A stretch of 64,000 nt of DNA from Gammaproteobacteria bacterium (GTDB taxonomy: Bacteria > Pseudomonadota > Gammaproteobacteria > Eutrophobiales > Eutrophobiaceae), in contig SCUJ01000006.1 in assembly GCA_004297165.1 (NCBI GenBank), forward strand, positions 1,178,464 through 1,242,463. Direction: 5' to 3'. The notes beneath the pieces were generated by a model. The model worked only from the letters and a program-made list of their open reading frames with translations, did not search any database and was not told where the DNA came from. The translations under genes were made by a program, and so were the position numbers. Of this stretch, positions 12,003-47,806 are shown piece by piece (position 1 is the stretch's first letter; each line of letters begins with the position of its first letter).

Positions 12003-13457
12003 ATGTTCGAACAAGCCTTCAAAAACATCGATGACGTCCTCCGAAAGGAGGCCGGCTGCACCACGGAACTCGACTATACCGAGCAATCCTCCTGGCTGCT
12101 GTTCCTGAAATACCTCGACGGCCTGGAGCAGGACAAGGTCACCGAAGCCGCCCTCTCCCGGAAGAAATATACCTACATCCTCGACAAACCCTACCGCTGG
12201 GAATCCTGGGCCGCGCCCAAGGGCAAGGACGGCAAACTCGACCATAATACCGCCCTCACCGGCGACGACCTCCGCGATTTCGTCAACGGCAAGCTCTTTC
12301 CCTACCTGCACGGTTTCAAGCAGCGGGCGACCGGGCCGGACACCATCGAATACAAGATTGGCGAGATTTTCGGCGAGATCAAGAACAAGATCCAGAGTGG
12401 CTATAACCTGCGCGAGATCATCGACCACATCGACGAACTCCGCTTCCGCTCCCAGACCGAGAAGCACGAGCTCTCGCACCTCTACGAGGCCAAGATCAAG
12501 AACATGGGCAACGCCGGGCGCAACGGCGGCGAGTATTACACCCCACGCCCGCTCATCCGCGCCATCATCCAGGTGGTGGCGCCGCGGATCGGCGAGCGCA
12601 TTTACGATGGCGCCTGCGGCTCGGCCGGTTTTTTGTGTGAATCCTTCGTTTACCTGACGGCCAAGGGCAAGCTCACCACCAAGGACCTCGCCACGCTCCA
12701 GACCCGCACCTTTTACGGCAAGGAAAAGAAATCCCTCGCCTACGTCATCGCCATCATGAACATGATCCTGCACGGGATCGAGGCGCCGAATATCATCCAC
12801 ACCAACACGCTGGCCGAGAACCTGGCCGATATCCAGAAACGCGACCGTTACGACGTGGTGCTGGCCAATCCGCCCTTCGGCGGCAAGGAACGAAAGGAAG
12901 TGCAACAGAACTTCCCCATCCGCACCGGCGAGACTGCGTTTCTCTTCCTCCAGCACTTCATCAAGAGCCTCAAGGCCGGCGGGCGCGGCGGTATCGTCAT
13001 CAAAAACACCTTTCTTTCCAACACCGACAATGCCTCCGTGAGCCTGCGCAAACTATTACTTGATAGCTGCAACCTCCACTCTGTGCTCGACTGCCCCGGC
13101 GGCACGTTCCAGGGCGCGGGCGTGAAGACCGTCGTACTGTTCTTTGAAAAAGGCGCGCCCACCCGCAAGGTCTGGTTCTACCAGCTTGCCCCTGGCCGCA
13201 GCCTCGGCAAGACCAACCCATTGAATGACGACGATTTGACCGAGTTCGTGAAACTGCAAAAGACCTTTGCCGACTCGGATAAAAGCTGGAGCGTGAGCGC
13301 CCAGGATATTGACCAAGCCACCTATGACCTCTCCGTGAAGAACCCGAACAGCGGCGAAGTAATTGTGCATCGCAGCCCGGAGCAAATCATGAATGAGATT
13401 GCCGCGCTGGACGCCGAGAGCGCGGAAGTGCTGGGGAACATCAGGGCACTGCTATGA
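12003..13457 (+). CDS. hsdM: Type I restriction-modification DNA methyltransferase subunit M
   Basis: N6-adenine methyltransferase subunit, 484 residues, forming M2S with HsdS for modification and R2M2S for restriction. An N-terminal helical HsdM domain (residues 1-130) precedes the catalytic domain. SAM motif I is D202-G-A-C-G-S-A-G-F210 (commonly DPACGTGGF), preceded by GGEYYTPR, and the catalytic NPPF starts at N289. The stop overlaps the hsdS start by 4 bp. A MITE copy ends 21 bp before the ATG. The length is typical of EcoEI-type (IB-like) HsdM. Target sequence cannot be read from this. Confidence 0.95.
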   Translation: MFEQAFKNIDDVLRKEAGCTTELDYTEQSSWLLFLKYLDGLEQDKVTEAALSRKKYTYILDKPYRWESWAAPKGKDGKLDHNTALTGDDLRDFVNGKLFPYLHGFKQRATGPDTIEYKIGEIFGEIKNKIQSGYNLREIIDHIDELRFRSQTEKHELSHLYEAKIKNMGNAGRNGGEYYTPRPLIRAIIQVVAPRIGERIYDGACGSAGFLCESFVYLTAKGKLTTKDLATLQTRTFYGKEKKSLAYVIAIMNMILHGIEAPNIIHTNTLAENLADIQKRDRYDVVLANPPFGGKERKEVQQNFPIRTGETAFLFLQHFIKSLKAGGRGGIVIKNTFLSNTDNASVSLRKLLLDSCNLHSVLDCPGGTFQGAGVKTVVLFFEKGAPTRKVWFYQLAPGRSLGKTNPLNDDDLTEFVKLQKTFADSDKSWSVSAQDIDQATYDLSVKNPNSGEVIVHRSPEQIMNEIAALDAESAEVLGNIRALL

Positions 13458-14611
13458 AGAATGGGTGGGAGCGAAAACCATTCGAGAACTGCATCGAGCC
13501 GGTGGTATACACCCGCAAGGTTCAGCGGAAGGATTTCCTCAACGAAGGCCAATTCCCAATCGTTTCGCAAGAGGCAGAGTTCACAAACGGTTACTGGAAC
13601 GACGAGGCTGATGTTTTCAAGGTTTCAACTCCCGTCGTCATCTTCGGCGACCACACTCAGGTTTTGAAGTATGTGGATTTTGATTTCGTGCTCGGCGCAG
13701 ATGGAGTGAAGATTTTGCAACCTCGTAGTTTCCTCCGCCCAAAGTTCCTTTTTTACCAATTACAGGCAGCCGAACTCGCGTCGCTCGGCTATGCGCGGCA
13801 TTACCGCCTTCTGAAAGAACTGGAGATAAAAGTCCCTCCGCTCCCCGAACAGCAGCGGATCGTCGGCCTGCTCGACGAAACGTTTTCGGGCATCGCCACC
13901 GCCCAGGCCAATGCCGGAAAGAACCTCCAAAACGCCCGCTCCCTCTTCGAAAGCCACCTCCAATCCGTCTTCACCCAGCGCGGCGCGAAGTGGGACAGGG
14001 TAACTTTGCAGACACTTCTTGATCGCCGCTGGATTGAGTGTCACTTGGACGGCAATCACGGAAGCGATTATCCCCGCAAGGACGAGTTTATCAGTGTAGG
14101 CGTTCCCTACATCTCCGCAAACTGTCTGGATGACGAGCATATTGACATGTCTCGCGCAAAGTATCTGTCGCCAAGTCGTGCTGCTCAACTTCGCAAAGGC
14201 ATCGCTAAGGACAACGACGTGCTCTTTGCACATAACGCAACGGTCGGGCCGGTGGCCATTCTTCACACAGATGAGGAGAAGGTGATTCTTGGTACTTCGC
14301 TCACTTACTATCGGTGCGATCCAAAGCATATCTTGCCGGAGTATCTTGCCCACTACATGCGGTCATTCGGATTTAAGTCGCAGTATTTGCAGGTAATGAA
14401 GCAATCCACCCGCAATCAAGTGCCCATCACGAAGCAGCGCGAGTTCTTCCACGTCATTCCACCACTTGAAGAACAAAAACTAATTGTCGGTGCGCTCGAC
14501 GGTTTGCTTGAAAATGGCCAACGCCTCGCTCACATCTACGAGCGGAAGCTCGCCGCGCTGGAGGCGTTGAAGAAGTCACTGCTGCACCAAGCCTTCACTG
14601 GAGAACTGTGA
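13454..14611 (+). CDS. hsdS: Type I restriction-modification specificity subunit S
   Basis: Specificity subunit of 385 residues with two target-recognition domains (about 1-130 and 180-325). Each is followed by the conserved helical spacer: first with Pro-Pro-Leu-Pro-Glu-Gln-Gln near 130, then with Pro-Pro-Leu-Glu-Glu-Gln-Lys near 335 and a closing helix ending in Gln-Ala-Phe-Thr-Gly-Glu-Leu. These coiled coils set the spacing of the bipartite DNA target. It is intact, with ATGA coupling to hsdM and close coupling to the rhuM gene. The first recognition domain is somewhat short, but nothing is missing. Confidence 0.93.
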   Translation: MKNGWERKPFENCIEPVVYTRKVQRKDFLNEGQFPIVSQEAEFTNGYWNDEADVFKVSTPVVIFGDHTQVLKYVDFDFVLGADGVKILQPRSFLRPKFLFYQLQAAELASLGYARHYRLLKELEIKVPPLPEQQRIVGLLDETFSGIATAQANAGKNLQNARSLFESHLQSVFTQRGAKWDRVTLQTLLDRRWIECHLDGNHGSDYPRKDEFISVGVPYISANCLDDEHIDMSRAKYLSPSRAAQLRKGIAKDNDVLFAHNATVGPVAILHTDEEKVILGTSLTYYRCDPKHILPEYLAHYMRSFGFKSQYLQVMKQSTRNQVPITKQREFFHVIPPLEEQKLIVGALDGLLENGQRLAHIYERKLAALEALKKSLLHQAFTGEL

Positions 14612-14613
14612 CC

Positions 14614-15666
14614 ATGCCAGGCGAACCATCACCCCAATCCAGCATCATCCTTTACCAGACGGAGGATGGCCGCACCCGCATCCAGTGCCGCTTCGAGGAC
14701 GATACGCTCTGGCTGACTCAGGCGCAGATAGCCGAGTTGTTTCAAACCACTCCACAGAACGTGACACTGCACTTGAAGGCCATCTTCGCGGAGGGGGAAT
14801 TGGCTGAGGCAGCAACTTGTAAGGATTACTTACAAGTTCGCTCCGAAGGCAGCCGTGAAGTGTCCCGCCAGCTCCGCCACTACCGGTTGGAGGCCATCCT
14901 CGCCGTCGGTTACCGCGTCCGCAGCCATCGGGGCACGCAGTTCCGGCAGTGGGCGACGGCGTGTTTGAGCGAGTATCTGGTGAAGGGGTTCACGATGGAC
15001 GACGAGCGGCTGAAGAATCCGCCCGGCAAAGGCCAGACTGACTACTTTGATGAGTTGCTGGTGCGCATCCGCGACATCCGCTCCTCGGAGCGACGTTTCT
15101 ACCAGAAGGTGCTCGATATTTACGCGACAAGCGTGGATTACGATCCGTCGGCGGAGGCAACGCAGCAGTTCTTCGCCACGGTGCAGAACAAGATGCACTG
15201 GGCGGCGCACGGTCAGACCGCGGCGGAAGTGATCCATGCGCGGGCGGATGCCGCCCGGCCATTCATGGGACTGAAGACGACGCGACCCGGCGGCATCATC
15301 CGCAAGGACGATGTGTCCATCGCCAAGAACTATCTCGACGCGGAGGAACTCGGCACGCTGAACCGGATCGTGAACGCCTACATCGAATTTGCCGAGCTGC
15401 GGGCGCTACAACGCAAAGTGATGGCGATGCGGGATTGGATCTCGAAGCTGGACGAGTTCCTGAAGATCTCCGAGCACGAGCTGTTGGATCATGCCGGAAA
15501 GATTTCCGCCGAGCAGGCCAGGGCAAAGGCCGAGTTGGAGTATGACCGCTACCGCAAGCTGGCAGATGCTCAGCCGCGCCCGGTGGATGCGGCCTTTGAG
15601 CAGGCCGTGAAACAGATCCAGAAGTCACCGCCCGCGCCGAAACCCCGCCGGAAGAAGAAACCATGA
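14614..15666 (+). CDS. rhuM: RhuM family protein within the type I R-M operon
   Basis: Protein of the virulence RhuM family, about 350 residues. A winged-helix-like N-terminus contains TLWLTQAQIAELF near residues 25-40 and a phage-antirepressor-like segment with TTPQNV. A long helical middle and a Lys/Arg/Pro-rich tail follow. RhuM was named in a Salmonella pathogenicity island; its biochemical role is unknown, but homologues are often found inside type I R-M operons. The ATG at 14614 was preferred; a GTG at 14608, overlapping the hsdS stop, is an alternative. The stop overlaps hsdR (ATGA), so it is translated as part of the R-M operon. A role in sensing or controlling restriction is inference. 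Confidence 0.85.
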   Translation: MPGEPSPQSSIILYQTEDGRTRIQCRFEDDTLWLTQAQIAELFQTTPQNVTLHLKAIFAEGELAEAATCKDYLQVRSEGSREVSRQLRHYRLEAILAVGYRVRSHRGTQFRQWATACLSEYLVKGFTMDDERLKNPPGKGQTDYFDELLVRIRDIRSSERRFYQKVLDIYATSVDYDPSAEATQQFFATVQNKMHWAAHGQTAAEVIHARADAARPFMGLKTTRPGGIIRKDDVSIAKNYLDAEELGTLNRIVNAYIEFAELRALQRKVMAMRDWISKLDEFLKISEHELLDHAGKISAEQARAKAELEYDRYRKLADAQPRPVDAAFEQAVKQIQKSPPAPKPRRKKKP

Positions 15667-18044
15667 ACGAAGCCGAAACCCGGGCCGAGCTGATTGATCC
15701 CGCATTGAGGGCGGCGGGATGGGGCGTGATCGAGGGCAGTCGAATTCGGCGTGAGTTTCCGATCACCCTGGGTCGAATAGAAGGTCACGGGCGCCGAGGC
15801 AAGCCACTTACCGCCGACTATGTCCTCGAGTACCGCAATACGAAGCTCGCCGTGATCGAAGCGAAAGCGGAGTATGAAGAACTCACCGAAGGCGTCGGGC
15901 AGGCCAAGAACTACGCCGGCAAACTCGCGGTCCGGCACACCTACGCCACCAACGGACACGGTATCTATGCGATAGACATGCGGACTGGGAGTGAAGGGGA
16001 AATCGCCGCCTTTCCGTCGCCCGAACAGCTCTGGACGATGACCTTCTCCGAGGCGAACGCTTGGCGCGACCGCTATGCTGCCGTGCCCTACGAGGACAAA
16101 GGCGGGTCTCATCCCGTACGTTACTACCAGGACATCGCCGTGGAGCGTGTCTTGCAGGCCATCGCGGATGAGCGGCAACGCATCCTGCTCACGCTTGCCA
16201 CCGGCACGGGCAAGACCTTCATCGCCTTTCAGATTGCATGGAAGCTTTTTTACTCGCGCTGGAACCTGAGCCGTGAACCTTCGCGCAGACCGCGGATCCT
16301 GTTTCTGGCTGACCGGAACATCCTGGCGAACCAGGCATTCAACGCCTTCTCCTCGTTTCCCGAGGATGCCTTGGTGCGCATTTCACCCGATGACATCCGC
16401 AAGAAAGGCAAGGTGCCGAAGAACGGCAGCTTGTTCTTCACGATCTTCCAGACTTTCATGACCGGACCAGTCGTGGACGGAAAGCCCTCGCCCTATTTCG
16501 GCGAGTATCCGCCGGACTTCTTCGACTTCATCGTCATTGACGAATGCCATCGCGGTGGTGCAAACGACGAAAGCAACTGGCGCGGCATCATGGAATACTT
16601 CGCCCCCGCCGTGCAGTTCGGCCTCACCGCCACGCCCAAGCGACAGGAGAACGCGGACACCTACCGCTATTTCGGCGAGCCCGTGTTTATCTATTCGCTC
16701 AAAGAGGGCATTAATGATGGCTTCCTCACACCGTTCCGTGTGAAACAGATACAGACGACACTCGACGAGTATGTCTATACGCCCGATGATACCGTGATTG
16801 AAGGCGAGATAGAGGCTGGAAAGCGCTACGAAGAGCAGGATTTCAACAAGAACATCGAAATCAGGTCACGCGAGAAGAAGCGTGTGGAAATCTTACTTTC
16901 AGAGATCCAACCGAACGAAAAGACCCTGGTGTTTTGCGCGAATCAACCCCATGCGCTGCTCGTGCGCGACCTCATCAATCAACTCAAAACCAGCAAAGAC
17001 CCGAACTACTGCCAGCGCGTCACGGCGGATGATGGCTTGCTGGGCGAGCAGCACCTGCGTGATTTTCAGGACAACGAAAAGATAATTCCGACCATTCTGA
17101 CCACGTCGCAGAAACTTTCCACCGGCGTGGATGCCAGGAATATCCGCAATATCGTGCTGATGCGGCCCATTAATTCGATGATCGAGTTCAAACAGATTAT
17201 CGGACGCGGTACGCGGCTGTTCGACGGGAAGGAGTACTTTACGATTTACGACTTCGTAAAGGCACACCTGCATTTCAATGACCCAGAATGGGATGGAGAG
17301 CCGCTGGAACCAGAGCCATGCGCAAGGTGTGGCCGCAATCCTTGCGTATGCATCAGGGAACCACCACCCCCTTGCGCTGTGTGCGGGCAGTCGCCATGCG
17401 TATGTCTGAAGGACCCGTGCCCGAAATGCGGTCAACGCCCTTGCATCTGCAAGAAGAAGGCGAAGGTTAAGCTCGCTGACGGCAAGGAACGCCAGATCCA
17501 GCACATGATGGCCACAACCTTCTGGCATCCCGACGGCACGCCCATGTCCGCGCAGCAGTTCATGGAAATGCTCTTCGGCAAGCTGCCGGATTTCTTCCAG
17601 AGTGAAGCCGAGTTGCGCCGTCTGTGGAGTAACCCCGAGACTCGGGCCAGGTTGCTCGTGGGGCTGGCCGAGAAAGGCTTCGGTCACAACCAACTGGCGG
17701 AGATGCAGAAGATCATCGATGCCGAGAACAGCGATCTCTTCGACGTGCTGGCGTATGTGGCCTACGCGCTGCCACCGGTATCACGGGTGGAACGGGCCGA
17801 CCATGCGCGGGCGTATATCCATTCCAACTTCAATGCCCGGCAGCAGACCTTTCTGGATTTTGTCCTCCTGCACTACGTTACCGTCGGCGTGGAGGAACTC
17901 GAACCCGCCAAGCTCACTCCCTTGTTGCGCCTCAAATACCACGACTCCATTGCTGATGCCATTGCCGACCTGGGGCGTCCCGAGGACATCGGCCGCATCT
18001 TCGCGAACTTCCAACAAGGCTTGTATTACGGGGCGACTGCGTGA
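15663..18044 (+). CDS. hsdR: Type I restriction endonuclease subunit R (EcoEI-type)
   Basis: Motor/nuclease subunit, 793 residues. The PD-(D/E)xK nuclease is N-terminal: D52 and E66-A-K68 followed by a Gln-rich helix. The SF2 translocase follows with Walker A ATGTGKT at 179-185, DECH at 293-296, GLTATP and the late motif IGRGTRL. A C-terminal helical domain binds M2S. Unusual: residues 553-596 hold three consecutive C-x2-C-G-x2-P-C-x-C units, a cysteine-rich, probably zinc-binding insertion between translocase and C-terminal domain. It ends the four-gene operon; a MITE tandem begins 6 bp after its stop. Confidence 0.94.
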   Translation: MNEAETRAELIDPALRAAGWGVIEGSRIRREFPITLGRIEGHGRRGKPLTADYVLEYRNTKLAVIEAKAEYEELTEGVGQAKNYAGKLAVRHTYATNGHGIYAIDMRTGSEGEIAAFPSPEQLWTMTFSEANAWRDRYAAVPYEDKGGSHPVRYYQDIAVERVLQAIADERQRILLTLATGTGKTFIAFQIAWKLFYSRWNLSREPSRRPRILFLADRNILANQAFNAFSSFPEDALVRISPDDIRKKGKVPKNGSLFFTIFQTFMTGPVVDGKPSPYFGEYPPDFFDFIVIDECHRGGANDESNWRGIMEYFAPAVQFGLTATPKRQENADTYRYFGEPVFIYSLKEGINDGFLTPFRVKQIQTTLDEYVYTPDDTVIEGEIEAGKRYEEQDFNKNIEIRSREKKRVEILLSEIQPNEKTLVFCANQPHALLVRDLINQLKTSKDPNYCQRVTADDGLLGEQHLRDFQDNEKIIPTILTTSQKLSTGVDARNIRNIVLMRPINSMIEFKQIIGRGTRLFDGKEYFTIYDFVKAHLHFNDPEWDGEPLEPEPCARCGRNPCVCIREPPPPCAVCGQSPCVCLKDPCPKCGQRPCICKKKAKVKLADGKERQIQHMMATTFWHPDGTPMSAQQFMEMLFGKLPDFFQSEAELRRLWSNPETRARLLVGLAEKGFGHNQLAEMQKIIDAENSDLFDVLAYVAYALPPVSRVERADHARAYIHSNFNARQQTFLDFVLLHYVTVGVEELEPAKLTPLLRLKYHDSIADAIADLGRPEDIGRIFANFQQGLYYGATA

Positions 18045-33058: not shown

Positions 33059-35149
33059 TTATCTCGCCTGGGGCCCCGGTGCGAAGAGGACCTCAGTGAG
33101 GTAGTGGCCGATATCCCGGATCTGTTCATTGCTTAAACTATAGCGGAAAGTCGGCATCGTATTTCTGCCGAGCCACACCGTGCGGATGATGGAGGCGGCA
33201 TCCACAGCGGCCGGCGCGAGGGTGGGCCCGGCGCCGTCCTGTCCGCCCAGACCCTCGTCGCCGTGACACCCGGCGCAGTTCTCGCGATACAGTCTGGCGC
33301 CAAGGTCGTGGTCGGGCGCGCCCTCGATGACCAGCACGTCCAGCGCCGCGGCGGCCTCCTCCACCGCCGCTTCCGCCTCGGTCAGCGGTTCCAGTTTCCC
33401 GTCCAGGCGGAACATCCACACACTGTCGCCGTGCCGGTTCCCGGCGTACATGCTGCCGCCGGCCAGCACGGCCACATGCTGCTTATCCTGATGTTCGAAG
33501 GTGGTCACCGTCGTGTTGACCCCGGCATCGGTCTGAAACTGCCAGAGCATATCGCCCGTGGCTTTGTCGAGGGCCGTCAGCCGGCCGTCGTTGCGTCCGG
33601 CGAATACCAACCCGCCGGCCGTTACCACCGATCCGCTGAGACATTGATCCGGCCACTGTTGCCGCCAGACTATGCGATTATCGCGTACATCGACAGCGGC
33701 AAAGATCCCGCGCCGGGGGACCAGAAAATCGCCGAAGGTCCCGCCGAGATAGGACTTGCCATCCGGGGGCGGCGGCGCGAAACCCGATCCGTCCGCCCTG
33801 GATGAGGCGATCGCATCGTTGGCGCAGGCATAAAACAAATGCGTCTCCGGGTCATAGGAACTCGGCGGCCAGTTCGAACCCATCATGGGTTTGTAGACCG
33901 CCATCTCGTCCCAGAACGGGGTGAAGATGCGACCCTCGTTGACGAGTCGCACCCCTTCCGGGGCGATATCGACGAATTGCGGCACGAGGGCGTCACCGAC
34001 GGGGAAGGGTTGGGTGGCGGCGGTGCGTTGCCGCGGTTCCTGCGGGACCGGCCGTTCCTCGATGCCGAGCAGGGGTTTGCCCGTCTCGCGATCCAGCAGG
34101 TAGACCCAGCCGGTCTTGGAAAACTCGGCCAGACCCTTGCGCATGACGCCTTGATACGGGGCATCGAAGAGGATCACTGGATTTGGGGAATCGTAATCCC
34201 AGATATCGTGATGCACCTGTTGATAATGCCAGCGGTATTTTCCAGTCTTCACCTCCAGGGCCACGATGGAAGCGGTGAAGAGGTTGTCCCCGGCGCGCGC
34301 GGAGCCGTTGAAATCCGGCGCGGCGTTGCCCGTGGAGAAATAGATCAACCCGAGTTCCGGATCGACGGCAGGCGTCTGCCAGACAGGTGCACCGCCGTAT
34401 TTCCAGGCGTCGCTGTCAGCGGGCCAGGTGTCGCCGCCAAATTCACCAGGGGCAGGGACGGTGTAAAAGGTCCAAAGCAATTCCCCGTTATCCGCGTCGT
34501 AGGCCTTGATTCGTCCGCGGATCCCCTTCTCGCCGCCGGCAAAGCCAACAATCACCATGCCGTCGTAATACAGCGGCGCGGCCGTGATGCTGTAGCCCTG
34601 GCGCGGGTCATCGGCCTGAACGGACCACAACACCTTCCCATCGCGCTGATCGAGGGCCTCGAGTTTCGCGTCCAGACGGCCGAGATAAAGTCTGCCATCG
34701 CCCACGCCGAGACCGCGGCTTAACCAACCGCAACAGGCCACGACCTCGTCCGGATTCAGGGCGGCGGGATGATTCCAGAGGATTGCGCCGCTCTCCGTAT
34801 CGAGCGCGAAGACATCGTCCTCCCCGGTGACGATATACAGCACCCCTTCATGGACCAGGGCCTGCGCCTGGGCGGAATGATTGGGTTTTCTTCCCGATCC
34901 CAGCAGATGCGTGCGCCACAGGGCCTTGAGGCCGGCGACGTTGTCGCGGCGGATCTCCTGCAATGGGGAATAACGCTGATTGTATAGATTGCCGCCGTTG
35001 GTCAGCCAATCCTCACGCGGGTGCTCCAGCAAGGTCCGTGCGGTGAAGGCGGGTGATGGGATGATGTTTGCCGCTCCGGCAGACTCGGTGGCCGCGGTCT
35101 GCGAAAAAATGCACAACAAAAACGCAGGTATAAAATGGCAAGGCTTCAC
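33059..35149 (-). CDS. PQQ-dependent alcohol dehydrogenase with C-terminal cytochrome c (quinohaemoprotein)
   Basis: Periplasmic enzyme of 696 residues with a signal peptide (residues 1-21). The eight-bladed PQQ propeller includes the adjacent-cysteine pair C139-C140 that stacks on PQQ, Trp-docking repeats ending Asp-x-x-Gly-x-x-x-Trp, and a KTGKYRWHYQ blade. The C-terminal domain binds one haem: C625-x-x-C628-H629, with M665 as probable axial ligand. Such enzymes oxidise primary or secondary alcohols and pass electrons to cytochrome. It is in the minus-strand run between an MBL hydrolase (45 bp upstream) and lysine dehydrogenase-like (25 bp downstream). Confidence 0.92.
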   Translation of the reverse strand: MKPCHFIPAFLLCIFSQTAATESAGAANIIPSPAFTARTLLEHPREDWLTNGGNLYNQRYSPLQEIRRDNVAGLKALWRTHLLGSGRKPNHSAQAQALVHEGVLYIVTGEDDVFALDTESGAILWNHPAALNPDEVVACCGWLSRGLGVGDGRLYLGRLDAKLEALDQRDGKVLWSVQADDPRQGYSITAAPLYYDGMVIVGFAGGEKGIRGRIKAYDADNGELLWTFYTVPAPGEFGGDTWPADSDAWKYGGAPVWQTPAVDPELGLIYFSTGNAAPDFNGSARAGDNLFTASIVALEVKTGKYRWHYQQVHHDIWDYDSPNPVILFDAPYQGVMRKGLAEFSKTGWVYLLDRETGKPLLGIEERPVPQEPRQRTAATQPFPVGDALVPQFVDIAPEGVRLVNEGRIFTPFWDEMAVYKPMMGSNWPPSSYDPETHLFYACANDAIASSRADGSGFAPPPPDGKSYLGGTFGDFLVPRRGIFAAVDVRDNRIVWRQQWPDQCLSGSVVTAGGLVFAGRNDGRLTALDKATGDMLWQFQTDAGVNTTVTTFEHQDKQHVAVLAGGSMYAGNRHGDSVWMFRLDGKLEPLTEAEAAVEEAAAALDVLVIEGAPDHDLGARLYRENCAGCHGDEGLGGQDGAGPTLAPAAVDAASIIRTVWLGRNTMPTFRYSLSNEQIRDIGHYLTEVLFAPGPQAR

Positions 35150-41323: not shown

Positions 41324-41842
41324 TTAGTTGATCAAGGCCTTCACATCCTGTTCGAATTCCTCATAGGTCAACGGTTTCTTGTGCATCTTTATGACCTTGC
41401 CGGTCTTGTCGTAGATCATGGTCATCGGCATCTCGCCCCACCACTTCTCGTCGAAGTCGGCATAGAACTCTTCCTCGGTAGATGCGGCGCGATACACCGG
41501 GAAACGCGGTTTGTGCTCGGCAAGAAACTCGGCGATGTCCTCCACTTCCTCCGGTTCATTCATGGAGACCGCGATGACCTGCAAACCCTGTGATTCATAT
41601 GTGTCGTAGAGCTTGATGATATCCGGGAATTCCTTGATGCAGGGGGGGCACCAGGTTGCCCAGAAGTTGAGGACCACCACCTTGCCTTCCTGTTCGCCTA
41701 CGACCGCCTTGATCTGATCGGAATCGAGCGCCTTCACCCCGGCGGCCTCTGCCGCGATTAGCGGCGGCGAGGCAAACATGACCAGAAGAAGCGCCAGAAT
41801 TGCGTTCAGACTCGTTTTACTCATGCTCTTCATTTCGGCCAT
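41324..41842 (-). CDS. TlpA-family thiol-disulfide oxidoreductase, exported
   Basis: Periplasmic thioredoxin-fold protein, about 172 residues. A hydrophobic signal segment is at residues 10-25 (LNAILALLLVMFA) and the redox motif C65-P-P-C68 in FWATWCPPC. The ATG at 41842 was chosen for its nearby AGG; later in-frame ATGs exist. A conserved Pro opposite the motif lies in EMPMTMIYDKTG. It probably reduces disulfides or selenenyl-sulfides in the cell envelope. Last gene of a rhodanese/CxxC/TlpA cluster below the UGSC selenoprotein. Confidence 0.88.
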   Translation of the reverse strand: MAEMKSMSKTSLNAILALLLVMFASPPLIAAEAAGVKALDSDQIKAVVGEQEGKVVVLNFWATWCPPCIKEFPDIIKLYDTYESQGLQVIAVSMNEPEEVEDIAEFLAEHKPRFPVYRAASTEEEFYADFDEKWWGEMPMTMIYDKTGKVIKMHKKPLTYEEFEQDVKALIN

Positions 41843-41852
41843 CACCTGTTCT

Positions 41853-42410
41853 CTACTTTTGTGCAAGGATCTGTTGCGTGGCGCTTTCCACCATGCCGAA
41901 GCTGGTCGAATCGATACCCGTCAGGTTCGTTTTCACGACCCGGTCAAGGTTGACCAGGAAGGTGTTTTTCACCGTGGGGTCCAGCTTGTACATGCGGACG
42001 GCCACATCCTTCTGACCTTTGCGCAAGACCACCAGCGGGATCTCGATCCCCTTGCTCTGCTTGAGTTCCTCGAGCCAGGGTTTTGCGTCCATGCCGGCCA
42101 CCACGACCGCAACCGCCTTGAACTTGCGATCCTTGTTTGCCTTGTACAGGGCATCAAGTTTCGCGATCAGTTCCGCGGTCTCGTCGTTGGCCTCCTGGAA
42201 GAAGCCGATGACATTCGGGTCGTTCTGGAACTCGCAGACATAGCAGATGCGCTTGCCCGCATACGCGCCAGTGACATCGAACACCGCGAAGGACAAGGTC
42301 GATTCTCCAACGGCCAGTCCCGACTTGACGGTTTCAACGGCGCCTGCTGCAGCCGCTGCGCTCAACAATCCGGCAAAAGCAAGGGTAAATATTACCTTGG
42401 AAAGTCTCAT
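41853..42410 (-). CDS. Exported thioredoxin-like protein with CxxC
   Basis: A 185-residue protein with a signal peptide (residues 6-23) and a C56-Y-V-C59 motif shortly after a strand, inside a thioredoxin-like fold (helix after the motif, beta strands AVAVVVAGMD and IPLVVLRK, C-terminal helix). It resembles redoxin-domain proteins of unknown role found in planctomycetes and proteobacteria. The start directly abuts the rhodanese stop, and TlpA follows 10 bp after. Possibly a partner of the rhodanese and the selenoprotein in a periplasmic redox chain; this is inference. Confidence 0.65.
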   Translation of the reverse strand: MRLSKVIFTLAFAGLLSAAAAAGAVETVKSGLAVGESTLSFAVFDVTGAYAGKRICYVCEFQNDPNVIGFFQEANDETAELIAKLDALYKANKDRKFKAVAVVVAGMDAKPWLEELKQSKGIEIPLVVLRKGQKDVAVRMYKLDPTVKNTFLVNLDRVVKTNLTGIDSTSFGMVESATQQILAQK

Positions 42411-42884
42411 CTAGGCGTCCTCCTCACTGTCGGTTGACTCGATCGGATAACCCAGTTCTTCCCACTTGAACCAGCCGCCGCGCAGGATCTTGGTGTTGAA
42501 ATAACCGAACATCCGCAGCTTCTTCGCCATGTCGATGGCATCCGCGTCATCGCCGGTGCAAGGGCAATACAACACCAGCGTCTTGTTGCGCGGCAGTGCG
42601 ATGGGCGGAGTCACATTGGCCACCCAGGGGAAGCTGATCGCCCCCTGGACATGCTCTTCCTCCCACTGCAATGCCGGCGCGGTATCGACGATGACGATGT
42701 CCTGGGATTTATCCTTGATGAGTTGCAGGAGTTCATCGGGTTCCATGAAATTCGGCTCATACGCAGCGCCGCCGGAAAGTTCCGCCTCGATGAATTCCTC
42801 CTGGCTGTAGCTGGCCGTCGCGAGCAGCAAGGCGGCCAGCCCCATAAGGAAGGAAGTCAGATATTTTCTGGTGATAGTGTTCAT
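42411..42884 (-). CDS. Exported rhodanese-like protein
   Basis: Single rhodanese domain of 157 residues behind a signal peptide (hydrophobic residues 10-24). The active-site loop reads C107-P-C109-T-G-D, with the sulfur-accepting cysteine C107 after a strand LVLY as in rhodaneses. A second Cys two residues on is unusual and could make a vicinal redox pair. It should carry or transfer sulfane sulfur (or selenium) in the periplasm. Lies 114 bp after the selenoprotein and is fused end to end with the CxxC protein gene. Confidence 0.85.
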   Translation of the reverse strand: MNTITRKYLTSFLMGLAALLLATASYSQEEFIEAELSGGAAYEPNFMEPDELLQLIKDKSQDIVIVDTAPALQWEEEHVQGAISFPWVANVTPPIALPRNKTLVLYCPCTGDDADAIDMAKKLRMFGYFNTKILRGGWFKWEELGYPIESTDSEEDA

Positions 42885-42998: not shown

Positions 42999-44867
42999 TT
43001 AATGTTTGGCCGCCAGGCCATCCTGAGACGAGGTCCTGCCCGCCTGCGTCAGGGTGGCGCCGCTGATCGGCTTGGAGATATGGGACTCCGGCTTGTATAT
43101 CCCGTTCCGATACGACGACATGGTGATGGTGTAACCCGGAATGCCGCCCGCAACCATAAAGTGCGCATCGGTCGGCCGCAACAGACCAGGGACCTTGCCG
43201 CCGGGTTTCAGGCCGGCCTCGAAGGCCTCCACCCGATCCGCAGGGATGTAACCCGACTTGATGGCGCGCTGCACGGAGGCGATCTCCGCCGGATGCAGGT
43301 TCTCGAAGGCGACGCTGGTCTGGTCATCGATGTAGGCTTGCAGGGATTCCCTGGTATAGCCGAGTCGACTGTTCAACTCCTGGGCGACCTCAGGGTTGAA
43401 GATGATGAAGAACTTGCGATGCGAGCTGCCGAAACCGCTTATCGGGCCGTTCGGCGTTTCCCGGACGCCGCCGCGCCCGCTCTTGATGTCATCGATGATG
43501 CTTTGCAGGACATTCTCCGGCGGGACCAGCGCCACCGCGCCGCCGCCATAGATCTTCGTGCCGCCCATCTGACCGTAACCGCCGGTTACCGAGATGGTCA
43601 CGATGCTGTCGCTCTCGGCATAACCCTCGCTTACGCGGTAGGAGGTCCAGGGACTCTGCGCCTGGTTTTCCGCGAAGGTCGGGAAGGCATGCGCGCCGGG
43701 ACGTCCCACCAGGGCCATGTCATTTGCCGCCGGCCAGGTATGACCCAGGTTGATCATGGCCATACGCGCGGCGCGGCCGATGGTGCTGTTGGCGCGGTTG
43801 CCGAAACTGAAAAGACCCAGCCCGGAATTCATGCCGATCTCGTCCGCGATCGGACCGCTCACGCCGATAACCAGATTGAAGGAACCTGTGGAGGTTGCGA
43901 AATGCAGCTCGTCGAATACAGGATCCGCCAGGGCATCGACAATGGCAAGTATCACGGGCAGATACTCCGGCTTGGCGCCGGCCATCACCGCGTTGATCGC
44001 CACTTTTTCCACGGTGGCCATGCCGTTACGCGGCGAGACTGGACCGATTTCCTCTTCCGGCGAACGTGTGGTTCCGCTCAACATCCACTTCACGCGCTCC
44101 GGCGTTGGCGCCACGATGGGCAGACCGTCCGTCCATTGGCTGGAGAGGAACTGATCGTTGACGTTCTCCAACGCCGCCTCCAGCGATTCGCCGGTTATCT
44201 TGATCGTGCCACGTGATTCCGTTTTCCGGTTCGGATTTTTTTCTTCGGCGGTGACCGGCTTGGTCAGCTTGGCAATCGCCTCTTCAAAATACTCTTTTGC
44301 CACTGGCGCGGCGCGTTCCTTGCTGATGCGCTCGCGGTAATACAGATCCGCGGCGACCGCGACGATCCGCATGTTCGGCACGCCATTGTCCTCGGCGGAC
44401 AGGTGCGCGTTTTCGTTAAACTGTGATGTCGTGAAGTAAACTGTCGGCATCCCCAACTTTTCCAATCTTGCTGTTCCGGCGCCGCCGGCCCAAGTACAAG
44501 ACCCTCAATCCCCGACACCGTAGAGTACGGTATCCACCTCTTTCACGATTTGCGCGGCGCGCTCATCGCCCAGATCGAACGGTCCCTGGTAGCGTTTCGT
44601 CTTGGTATTCGGGTAGCGTTCATGCATCAAGGCCTCGATCCCATCCCAGAAATTGTCGCCGCCGGCCTTGCCAATCCAGTAGATGCCCACTGTCTTTCCA
44701 TCCAGATCGCCCACGCGTTCGGATGGGGCGTTAAACGGCGGAGGCGGAATGATGCCCCGCGGATTCAACACCTCTAGCGTCACAGAATCCTTCCCGCCAG
44801 CCGCAAAGGCCAGCAACCCGGGCAGCAGCAATACCCCCACCGCCATGCCTTGTATCAGTTTCTTCAT
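42999..44867 (-). CDS. UGSC-family selenoprotein with in-frame TGA (Sec) and large C-terminal domain
   Basis: One gene read through a TGA at 44505-44507, translated as selenocysteine 121; 622 residues in all. An upstream GGGAG supports the ATG at 44867. Signal peptide at 1-22. Residues 60-210 match the UGSC family: GKTVGIYWIGK, then Val-Leu-Tyr-Gly-Val-Gly-Asp followed by U121-G-S-C124-T and LEKLGMPTVYFTT. The frame after the TGA is open to 42999 without another stop. Residues about 225-400 form a second conserved domain: DGLPIVAPTPERV, NGMATVEKVAINAVMAGAKPEYLP, and GMNSGLG with a following Asn-Arg-Ala-Asn. That second domain is, as far as I recall, common near or on UGSC proteins. Likely a periplasmic redox enzyme; its reaction is unknown. 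A standard caller would give two genes (44867-44505 and about 44465-42999). Confidence 0.87.
44467..44507 (-). promoter_or_regulatory. Candidate bacterial SECIS downstream of the UGA
   Basis: On the minus strand, after the UGA at 44507-44505, the RNA can form a stem CCGGC (44488-44484) with GCCGG (44480-44476) and a GGC loop starting 22 nt after the UGA. An outer CUUG (44500-44497) pairs with CAAG (44470-44467). The position (within 16-37 nt), a G in the first loop positions and the coding-region location match the bacterial SECIS consensus that recruits SelB. Folded by eye only. Confidence 0.7.
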
Positions 44868-45149: not shown

Positions 45150-47600
45150 CTAATTCGAGTTTATGCGCATGTGCTTGTAGAGATCCGGCTGGCCGGCCAG
45201 GGTGTTGATAATCATGTCACGGGTCACCGGCGCCCGATTGAGGTAATGACCGCCAAGCGCATCGGCAATCGCGGACAGCAGCGCCGAGGCTGCAGCGCCC
45301 ACGGGCGGTTCGCCGGTTCCTTTGATTCCCAAGGGATTATCCTTATCGGGCAGGTTCACTGCGTCCACATCCATGTTTTTCGGGGCATCCATGGAACCCG
45401 GCGGTTTGGACTGGTACAGCGAAGCGCTACCGGTTAAACCGTTCTGCGGGTCGTAAACTGTCCGCTCCAGGGACGCCATGCCTATACCCAACAACGCCCC
45501 ACCCTTAATCTGGGTCGTAAGCCCCATGGGATGGATGATGGTGCCGCAATCCTGAATCCCGACATAGTCCTGGATTTCGTAGTGGCCGGTTTCCGTATCC
45601 AGTTCAATCTTCATGAAGGCTATGCCGATGCCCGCTGGCGTACCGGTACGCGGGAGGGTATCCCTCGCCACGCCGACAAGCCCGGTCCCGGCGATGCCCT
45701 GTACCGCGGCCATGGTCTCGGCATTGATCTTGGTCTGCTCATTGCCTGTATCGGGCACTTCTACGCCGCTGAACTTACCGCCGAGTTCGATGGCGCGCTG
45801 GGCTGCCTGCGCGTAAGTCAGGGATTTTGCCGGATCGGCCTTGGCGAAAACCTTTTCGTCGCCGATATCGTAATCATCAGCCGTTCCCCCGAGGTCCGTG
45901 ACGGCAATCTCCTTGAGTTTGGCGATCATGTCCTGCGCCGCGACATAATTGGTGCGGGTCATGGTATTGGAGGTATTGCTGCCGCCTTGCGCCATGTTCC
46001 AGGGTAGGTGCTTGCGACTGTCACCGCGCTCGATGACGCAGTTTTCCCACTTTACCTTGAGGACTTCCGCAGCGATCCGGGAGGTGCCGCTATGCGAGAA
46101 GGTCCCGAGGTTGCCGATACCGGTATGGATATGCAGGATGCCATCCGGCGTTATGCGGAGCAACCCATCCATACCGCTGAACCCGGCCGGATGAAAGGCC
46201 TGACCAACACCGACGCCAATCACCTTGCTGCCGTCACGCTTACCGCTCTGTTTGCTCTTTTCCGCCCAATTGAACTTTTCGGCGCCTTTCTCCAGGGCCT
46301 CTTTCTGATAGGCGCTGGAAAGGGGCATCTGTCTGCCGCCGATTTTAGAGTCATTGTTCGCGGCGTTGAGCTTGCGAATCGTCACCTGATCAATGCCCAA
46401 TTGACGCGCGGCCTTGCTGATGACGGGATCGACGCCCTCGACGATCTGGTTCTGACCAGGGCCCCGTTGCGCGCCTTTAGGCGTGGTATTGGTGGAGATT
46501 GAGATGCCCCGATAGCGCATGGCTTCGGGCTGGTATAACAGGCTCACGCCCTCCGCGGCGGAACTGTGCTCAGTGCTCCCCGCATAGGGTCCGTTTTCGG
46601 AGACGATGTACAGATCGGCGGCAACCACCCGTCCTTCCTTGCTGAAACCCATCTTGATGCGGCCCTGGAAGCCTGGCCGGGCATTGCCCAGGAAAAACTC
46701 TTCGGCGCGGTTCACACGCATCATCACCGGGCGGTTGACCTTTTTCGACATCAGTGCCGGCAATACCAGCAACGGATAGGAAACGATTTTTGAACCAAAA
46801 CCGCCACCGCAGTATTCGGCGATCAACACCACATCCTTCGATTCGATTGGTACGCCTGCGGCCGTCAGCGCCCCGGCGATCGCGGGCTTGACCATGCTCT
46901 GGCTCTGTGAGGAGGCATGTACAAATACCTTGCCGTTCTGCCAGTAGGCCATCCCGCTGCGCGGTTCCAGCGAGTGGGTGGCGTTGCTGTTGGTCACGAA
47001 GGACTCATCGAGGATCAGATGGGCCTTGGCAAATCCCGCTTCCAGGTCCCCGTAGGACCAGGTTGCGCCGTTTTCTTCTCCCATGGGCAACTTGTCATCG
47101 CCGGCATCCGCAAAGTCCTTGGCTTTCCATTTGACGCTTTTCAGTTCCGGCGGTTGACCGAAGGCGCCTGAGATCGTGTTGCCCGAGGTCTTGGCATTGG
47201 GGCCTCCGGGGTAGAGACTTTGCAAGGGATCGACCGTGAATGGCAATTCTTCAAATTCTATCTTGATCTTTTCGATGGCATCCTGCGCGGCCGTCTCAGA
47301 TTCCGCCGCCACCGCCAGGATAGGCTGCCCCACGAAATGCGGTTCGTTGGAGAGTATGGGATCCCTGGGCTCCGGCGTCGGAGGGAAATCATCCGCGGTA
47401 AGGATGCCGACCACACCGGGCATTTTAAGGGCCTCCGAGGTATCGAGAGTCTTTACCTTGGCGTGGGGAATGGGGCTAAGCATCAGGCAGCAATAAACCA
47501 TCCCATCGGCGCGGAAATCCTCGGCGTATTTGGCCTTGCCAGTGACCTTTGCCTCAACGTCATGCGGTATGAAATTCTTGCCAATATGCATGTATGCCAT
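45150..47600 (-). CDS. Molybdenum hydroxylase large subunit (xanthine dehydrogenase family)
   Basis: Molybdopterin-cytosine-dinucleotide-binding catalytic subunit of 816 residues. An N-terminal XdhB/CoxL-type hammerhead domain (KVTGKAKYAEDF, then VGILTADDFP) is followed by the Moco-binding domain with GGGFGSK, RGPGQNQ, and the catalytic Glu764 in GTGEPPVGA. The ATG at 47600 was chosen for its GGGGAG site. Such enzymes need a 2Fe-2S subunit and often an FAD subunit, none of which is adjacent. No signal or Tat motif, so cytoplasmic. Substrate unknown. A strong terminator follows, separating it from the selenoprotein operon. Confidence 0.88.
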   Translation of the reverse strand: MAYMHIGKNFIPHDVEAKVTGKAKYAEDFRADGMVYCCLMLSPIPHAKVKTLDTSEALKMPGVVGILTADDFPPTPEPRDPILSNEPHFVGQPILAVAAESETAAQDAIEKIKIEFEELPFTVDPLQSLYPGGPNAKTSGNTISGAFGQPPELKSVKWKAKDFADAGDDKLPMGEENGATWSYGDLEAGFAKAHLILDESFVTNSNATHSLEPRSGMAYWQNGKVFVHASSQSQSMVKPAIAGALTAAGVPIESKDVVLIAEYCGGGFGSKIVSYPLLVLPALMSKKVNRPVMMRVNRAEEFFLGNARPGFQGRIKMGFSKEGRVVAADLYIVSENGPYAGSTEHSSAAEGVSLLYQPEAMRYRGISISTNTTPKGAQRGPGQNQIVEGVDPVISKAARQLGIDQVTIRKLNAANNDSKIGGRQMPLSSAYQKEALEKGAEKFNWAEKSKQSGKRDGSKVIGVGVGQAFHPAGFSGMDGLLRITPDGILHIHTGIGNLGTFSHSGTSRIAAEVLKVKWENCVIERGDSRKHLPWNMAQGGSNTSNTMTRTNYVAAQDMIAKLKEIAVTDLGGTADDYDIGDEKVFAKADPAKSLTYAQAAQRAIELGGKFSGVEVPDTGNEQTKINAETMAAVQGIAGTGLVGVARDTLPRTGTPAGIGIAFMKIELDTETGHYEIQDYVGIQDCGTIIHPMGLTTQIKGGALLGIGMASLERTVYDPQNGLTGSASLYQSKPPGSMDAPKNMDVDAVNLPDKDNPLGIKGTGEPPVGAAASALLSAIADALGGHYLNRAPVTRDMIINTLAGQPDLYKHMRINSN

Positions 47601-47806
47601 GGTCGCTCCCCAGTGGTGTATCAATCCAGGCAAATGTACTAGATTTGCAGATTATTGCAAGCGTGTATGAAGGGCGATTTCTGGATCCGCGTCATCAGGG
47701 AACATATACTCGCATGCTGATAAAACCAGTATTCATCACGTGCGTCATTTATCATACCAACCTGAATCCGCACGTCCTGAATCCGACATTAATCAGGAGT
47801 ACCATA
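47601..47806. promoter_or_regulatory. Divergent promoter region of hydroxylase and oligoendopeptidase genes
   Basis: Interval of 206 bp between the divergent starts at 47600 and 47807, AT-richer than the genes. AGGAGT before 47807 is a good ribosome site. No operator or small gene was recognised. Confidence 0.35.

Follow-up and report, generated by a model that had tools for sequence, protein, structure and literature searches.

The UGSC family of selenoproteins was published in 2008 together with a fusion of UGSC to a conserved unknown domain (UGSC/Unknown_1) from the Global Ocean Sampling data, and was then called likely thioredoxin-like (PMC2398784). Passages of a 2026 review place UGSC among the proteins grouped with thioredoxin-like folds (PMC13188914). 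The family as now catalogued (PF24696; Zhang and Gladyshev; NF041046) has selenocysteine (Sec) in a canonical U-G-S-C motif. A second group of selenoproteins that bears on the present locus comprises, from fermenting bacteria, GrdB, which is selenoprotein B of the glycine, betaine and sarcosine reductases (TIGR01917/TIGR01918), and PrdB of D-proline reductase (TIGR04483); in GrdB, according to passages of the same review, Sec takes part when an activated amino acid is reductively cleaved (PMC13188914).

The gene described here is a further member of the already known UGSC selenoprotein family, and is one of at least 16 related selenoprotein genes in one bacterium. It occupies positions 42999-44867 on the minus strand of the 64-kb stretch of DNA that was analysed (the window) and has 622 codons with one internal TGA at 44505-44507, at residue 121 in the context VLYGVGD-U-GSCTWAGG. 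An earlier note on this DNA had placed the TGA at the U of U-G-S-C and had the same frame running on past it, which is what we find, the frame from 44867 to 42999 closing with a TAA. The same note had observed that the downstream part lacks a good start of its own, and this part is indeed listed as an open reading frame only from a TTG at 44465, 14 codons on and already past the motif; a GGGAG stretch shortly 5' of the ATG is a possible ribosome-binding site for the whole frame. Residues 1-24 (44796-44867) form a probable signal peptide, judged by inspection to be a hydrophobic leader and modelled with low pLDDT at residues 1-21, and are followed by the Sec domain (residues 33-202; 44262-44771) and a C-terminal domain (residues 222-606; 43050-44204). 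A comparison with UGSC family models, as the note had suggested, gives a Pfam PF24696 match over residues 33-202 with the TGA inside it (89.1 bits, cut-off 25) and an NF041046 match over residues 56-172 (E 1.2e-22, 80.5 bits) that does not reach the equivalog cut-off of 125, so that the protein is a UGSC member by Pfam but falls outside the NCBIfam equivalog as curated.

We propose that the gene encodes an exported, two-domain selenoprotein acting as a GrdB-like Sec reductase that is re-reduced by thiol carriers encoded next to it, and we put the probability of this reading, with the conditional steps set out below, at roughly 0.6.

The kinship with GrdB emerges from profile comparison, in which UGSC positions 101-205 align with GrdB positions 335-433 at a probability of 93.8% (E 1.8e-7), pairing Sec with Sec and Cys with Cys. 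Masking the five motif residues leaves the same register (E 9e-4) but lowers the probability to 22%, and a reversed-profile control reaches 0.9%. Among 14 gene families of grd loci set against the UGSC profile only GrdB matches (90.7%), the others scoring at most 1.4%, and a Glu at U+15 is invariant in 82 UGSC and 28 GrdB sequences. Selenoprotein B models of the TIGR01917/TIGR01918 type are matched by 9 of 70 homologues (9 and 3 respectively), others matching GrdF, GrdH or PrdB, all of them weakly; the 622-residue protein itself matches neither TIGR01917 nor TIGR01918. These computations show the UGSC Sec domain to be a remote homologue of the Sec-bearing C-terminal domain found in GrdB-type reductases, and the presence of a GrdB-like Sec domain in the protein under study is very probable. 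A Cys three residues after the Sec position occurs in 67 of 70 Sec-containing members but in only 4 of the 39 members that lack Sec, the pattern that a selenenylsulfide pair should give.

In the literature reading, the U-x-x-C would instead serve as the CxxC of a thioredoxin-like thiol:disulfide oxidoreductase working on periplasmic proteins or small disulfides. The U-x-x-C spacing is indeed common to thioredoxin-like selenoproteins and the UGSC protein, the Cys is coupled to the Sec, TlpA- and rhodanese-type genes lie close by and the likely thioredoxin-like fold was stated in 2008, but the specific profile match to GrdB argues otherwise, as does the AlphaFold2 model of the Sec domain (pLDDT 89.5). 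In this model strands and helices alternate, with Sec121 just ahead of the helix that follows strand 113-119, and the predicted strand order differs from that of thioredoxin-like selenoproteins. In structural searches the model comes closest to lumazine-synthase-, flavodoxin- and binding-protein-like structures (Foldseek E 8.9e-4 and VIA Z 11.3, with an rmsd of 4.7 over 132 residues, at best), thioredoxins are absent from its listed matches, and no thioredoxin family appears among the Pfam matches of 70 members. A PDB sequence search with the UGSC family profile gave no match, and a GrdB structure was looked for but none was found. The data favour a GrdB-type domain over a thioredoxin-like fold, and we regard the thioredoxin-like reading as unlikely.

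The C-terminal domain spans 385 residues, is modelled at a pLDDT of 89.6 and matches no Pfam family. At three loci in the same class (L204 and L206 in one genome, G571, and L205 in another, G350) two neighbouring genes encode the domains separately, one for a UGSC selenoprotein of about 200 residues with a TGA and one for the second domain, and the 42999-44867 protein thus joins in a single chain what these loci divide between two genes. In entire clades, mostly of Bacillota with some Acidobacteriota, the two domains are kept although Sec and Cys are both missing, and so the fold can act without Sec/Cys chemistry. In a clade from rumen and digester Bacillota (L088-L102 and L110) both domains are present, Sec is replaced by Thr, Ser or Ala and the Cys is lacking, and some of these loci contain genes for a glycyl radical enzyme and its activase as well. 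Several possible relatives of the C-terminal domain were considered and set aside: class I fumarate hydratase (5l2r; best Foldseek E 6.8e-4, TM 0.22) and the best VIA match (Z 5.8, rmsd 2.7 over 80 residues) are both too weak to claim, and the grd-locus genes GrdE, GrdA, GrdC and GrdD were tested with no relation found. The earlier note had suggested that an exported member with a large extra domain is less described; a fusion of UGSC to a conserved unknown domain, which may correspond to the C-terminal domain seen here, was already in the 2008 paper.

Three closely spaced genes follow on the same strand. They encode an exported rhodanese-domain protein (42411-42884), a 185-residue exported protein with a CYVC motif (41853-42410) and a TlpA/ResA-type thiol-disulfide oxidoreductase with a CPPC motif (41324-41866), the last a candidate reductant. 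A rhodanese gene adjoins UGSC in related Gammaproteobacteria and at three Acidobacteriota loci, in two of which (L061 and L072) the rhodanese and the 185-residue protein form a single fusion; a TlpA gene was not found beside other family members. Upstream lies the gene for the large subunit of a molybdenum hydroxylase of the xanthine dehydrogenase type (45150-47633, minus strand), close relatives of which are present at the loci of two other genomes (G002 and G019). A paralogue 68% identical to the protein under study is encoded about 25 kb away, near PQQ dehydrogenase-like genes, and the neighbours of other family members include PQQ dehydrogenases, molybdenum enzymes, AFOR, SDR or glycyl radical enzymes. 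The window also contains a PQQ dehydrogenase-cytochrome c domain fusion (33059-35149, minus strand), adjoined by aldehyde dehydrogenase and saccharopine-dehydrogenase-like genes, and a type I restriction-modification locus with an HsdM-like methylase and an HsdR-like helicase (12003-18044, plus strand).

By analogy with GrdB we propose nucleophilic Sec chemistry with Cys124 as the resolving thiol. A small substrate would sit between the Sec domain and its C-terminal partner, where the selenolate of Sec121, placed at the point where the helix following strand 113-119 begins, would attack an activated carbon or sulfur of the substrate. Cys124 would then form a selenenylsulfide with Sec121, freeing the reduced product, and the selenol would be restored by the neighbouring thiol carriers, namely the TlpA-type protein, the CYVC protein and the rhodanese. 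We consider the chances about even that Sec121 performs reductase-type nucleophilic catalysis of this kind; that the TlpA and rhodanese proteins are the electron donors is a possibility to which we give somewhat less than even odds. The sixteen family members may represent the same catalyst tuned to different substrates, which would be in keeping with their differing oxidoreductase neighbours.

A different role for the same residues would be the handling of sulfur, selenium or metals, with Sec121 and Cys124 working alongside the rhodanese and TlpA proteins to carry or detoxify a soft ligand, and no carbon substrate being reduced. The conserved rhodanese neighbour, fused to the CYVC protein in Acidobacteria, would suit such a role, and metal binding has been proposed for other selenoproteins in passages of the 2026 review (PMC13188914); the PQQ dehydrogenase, molybdenum enzyme, AFOR, SDR and glycyl radical neighbours found elsewhere point instead to organic substrates, and we think ligand handling improbable.

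That the TGA is decoded is supported by comparison within and between genomes. A search of the organism's own genome (3.53 Mb in 13 contigs) yields 16 homologous frames including the 42999-44867 gene, each with an in-frame TGA that falls in the same aligned column in 16/16, and Sec121 and Cys124 are invariant among them, the motifs being UGSC, USTC, USLC, USSC, UHGC, UDGC and UNGC. In a wider homologue set, composed of 80 loci from named genomes together with the loci of two related genomes, the codon in the residue-121 column is TGA in 70 stretches and encodes Cys in five; the remaining homologues have Ser, Thr, Ala, Asn or others at this position, and all but two are without an in-frame stop. 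Comparison with the orthologue from the same genus (G002, locus L140) gives a dN/dS of 0.07 before the TGA (residues 30-120) and of 0.06 after it (residues 122-606); both sides of the TGA evolve as one coding sequence.

Were the TGA instead a true stop, a sequencing error or the mark of a pseudogene, the locus would encode a 120-residue protein and a separate downstream open reading frame. TGA continues to serve as a stop codon in this organism, since 6 of the 16 family genes end in it; however, a true stop at residue 121 is excluded by the identical TGA in all 16 members, by the homologues with Cys, Ser or Thr that read through, by the low dN/dS on both sides and by a hairpin specific to the TGA-bearing homologues (below), and the Pfam domain spans the TGA. 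Sequencing error, for which the earlier note had allowed in the form of another codon or a frameshift, is ruled out because the TGA is conserved in independent assemblies, including that of the G002 orthologue. We consider this whole alternative highly improbable. Reassignment of TGA to an ordinary amino acid throughout the genome can be dismissed as a negligible possibility, given the same six TGA-terminated genes and the Sec machinery that the genome encodes.

This machinery is complete as far as the earlier note had called for it, with SelA (583.6 bits), SelB (362.9 bits) and SelD (363.3 bits) all above their cut-offs and a tRNA-Sec at 70.8 bits, to which ARAGORN assigns the anticodon TCA. 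SelD too contains Sec, in the motif TCGUAAK. A 10-kb segment of contig C2 carries, in this order, selB, a UGSC paralogue, selA, a second UGSC paralogue and tRNA-Sec. A short open reading frame with similarity to the C-terminal portion of SelA (32 bits) is also seen between selA and the next UGSC paralogue (C2 near 149050; L027:11017-11337). A tRNA-Ser with anticodon TGA (L010, C13:578010-578095) that scored as tRNA-Sec, at 48.6 bits against the Rfam cut-off of 47, is a false positive. In other organisms selB-like genes adjoin family members in one Burkholderiales locus (L109) and two Bacillota loci (L119 and L121), and a selD-like gene stands beside family members in L119. Across the organism's family SelB is above cut-off in 10 of 53 genomes and UGSC matches occur in four, one of them as fragments only, so that the Sec trait can be present where UGSC is absent. 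G000 and G019 have SelB, which was not found in G002, a 76%-complete genome. G019 belongs to the same GTDB family and shares identical contigs with the public gammaproteobacterial MAG B4_bin.12 (L044 and L045 against L145 and L148), which places the organism in the Gammaproteobacteria.

Directly 3' of the UGA is a hairpin (44464-44503, minus strand) that we regard, from its folding energy and z score, as a putative bacterial SECIS. Folding of the 42 bases after the TGA gives the gene an MFE of -19.0 kcal/mol and, relative to 200 synonymous recodings, a z of -1.74. The mean z is -1.31 for TGA-bearing homologues (n=82), -0.08 for non-Sec homologues (n=39) and 0.14 for five Cys versions, and control windows elsewhere in the same 16 genes have mean z between 0.05 and -0.53. 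The corresponding p values (4e-22 against zero and 1e-9 for Sec versus non-Sec) overstate independence as the sequences are related, although the contrast between Sec and non-Sec homologues is clear despite this kinship. Stem pairs vary on both sides in two subgroups, at 15-30 (GC, CG, UA) and 15-31 (GC, AU, CG, GU), and the USxC subgroup has a consensus GGUC apical loop. These two-sided changes are confined to two other subgroups; the gene's own subgroup has a weak common stem, and its hairpin consequently rests on the fold of a single sequence. For the UGSC family, computation shows that a hairpin under selection follows the UGA. Rfam at gathering scores reports no RNA in the 64-kb window, a result of little weight as bacterial SECIS elements are too variable, and a scan by codon usage for more genes with an in-frame TGA in the window had no power, missing even the TGA at 44505. 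Taken with the 16 aligned members, the wider homologues, the dN/dS values and the Sec machinery, the hairpin data make Sec insertion at UGA 121, which the earlier note had proposed because chance would hardly preserve a conserved protein across a true stop, a computational prediction that we hold to be nearly certain.

The 16 copies are scattered in the tree among Acidobacteriota, Chloroflexota, Myxococcota and other Pseudomonadota, and the 'Sec' label needs only five changes on it, which indicates that Sec is old and that the copies do not come from one recent amplification; a single recent tandem amplification was rejected on this ground. UGSC matches occur in only 6 of the 369 genomes sampled from the class. 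Most of the organism's own paralogues have a hydrophobic leader, which is absent in C2_144791, C13_1589471 and C13_1673591. One paralogue (L040; C4, near 5091) meets a long stretch of N, its first 410 residues being readable. Variants of the motif are seen further afield: three Dehalococcoidia loci (L049, L051 and L054) have U-G-T-F-T-C, with the partner Cys at +5 instead of +3, and in Bacillota tandems (L113, L119 and L121) one gene has Cys at the Sec column without Cys+3 and the next has a TGA in U-N-C-C. With SelD the 16 family members set a lower bound of at least 17 on the selenoproteome; passages of the 2026 review give larger ones of 57 and 63 genes (PMC13188914), so this number is high but no record.

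In the passages of the literature covered there is no link between UGSC and GrdB, although Haft and Tolstoy (2025) may mention it or the expansion; relative to those passages, the 16-fold expansion, the evidence for a GrdB/PrdB kinship of the Sec domain and the split two-gene loci go beyond what is described, and the expansion, the GrdB-like domain and the separable partner domain are of wider interest. A widespread selenoprotein family gains a testable mechanistic anchor in the GrdB-type Sec domain, and a partner domain able to be a separate subunit. As 16 members keep Sec and other clades have replaced it, the reason for its retention can be tested by Sec/Cys exchange. In practical terms, annotation that stops at the UGA would split or truncate all 16 genes. 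More tentatively, UGSC may constitute an unrecognised branch of GrdB/PrdB-type Sec reductases whose Sec domain is fused to, or paired with, a new substrate domain, and which in this one gammaproteobacterium would comprise at least 16 Sec-dependent, mostly exported enzymes that act on different substrates outside amino acid fermentation.

GrdB and PrdB have in common with the UGSC protein the U-G-[ST]-C-T motif and the Glu at U+15, aligned without gaps, and also Gly and Pro at U+18 and U+20. The first 330 or so residues of GrdB are without counterpart in the UGSC profile match, and unlike GrdB the UGSC protein has a hydrophobic leader and a different partner domain, itself without similarity to other Grd genes. 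Compared with the UGSC equivalog as curated in NF041046, with which it shares the domain and the canonical Sec-containing motif, the protein encoded at 42999-44867 is predicted to be exported, has a second domain of 385 residues and is one of 16 copies.
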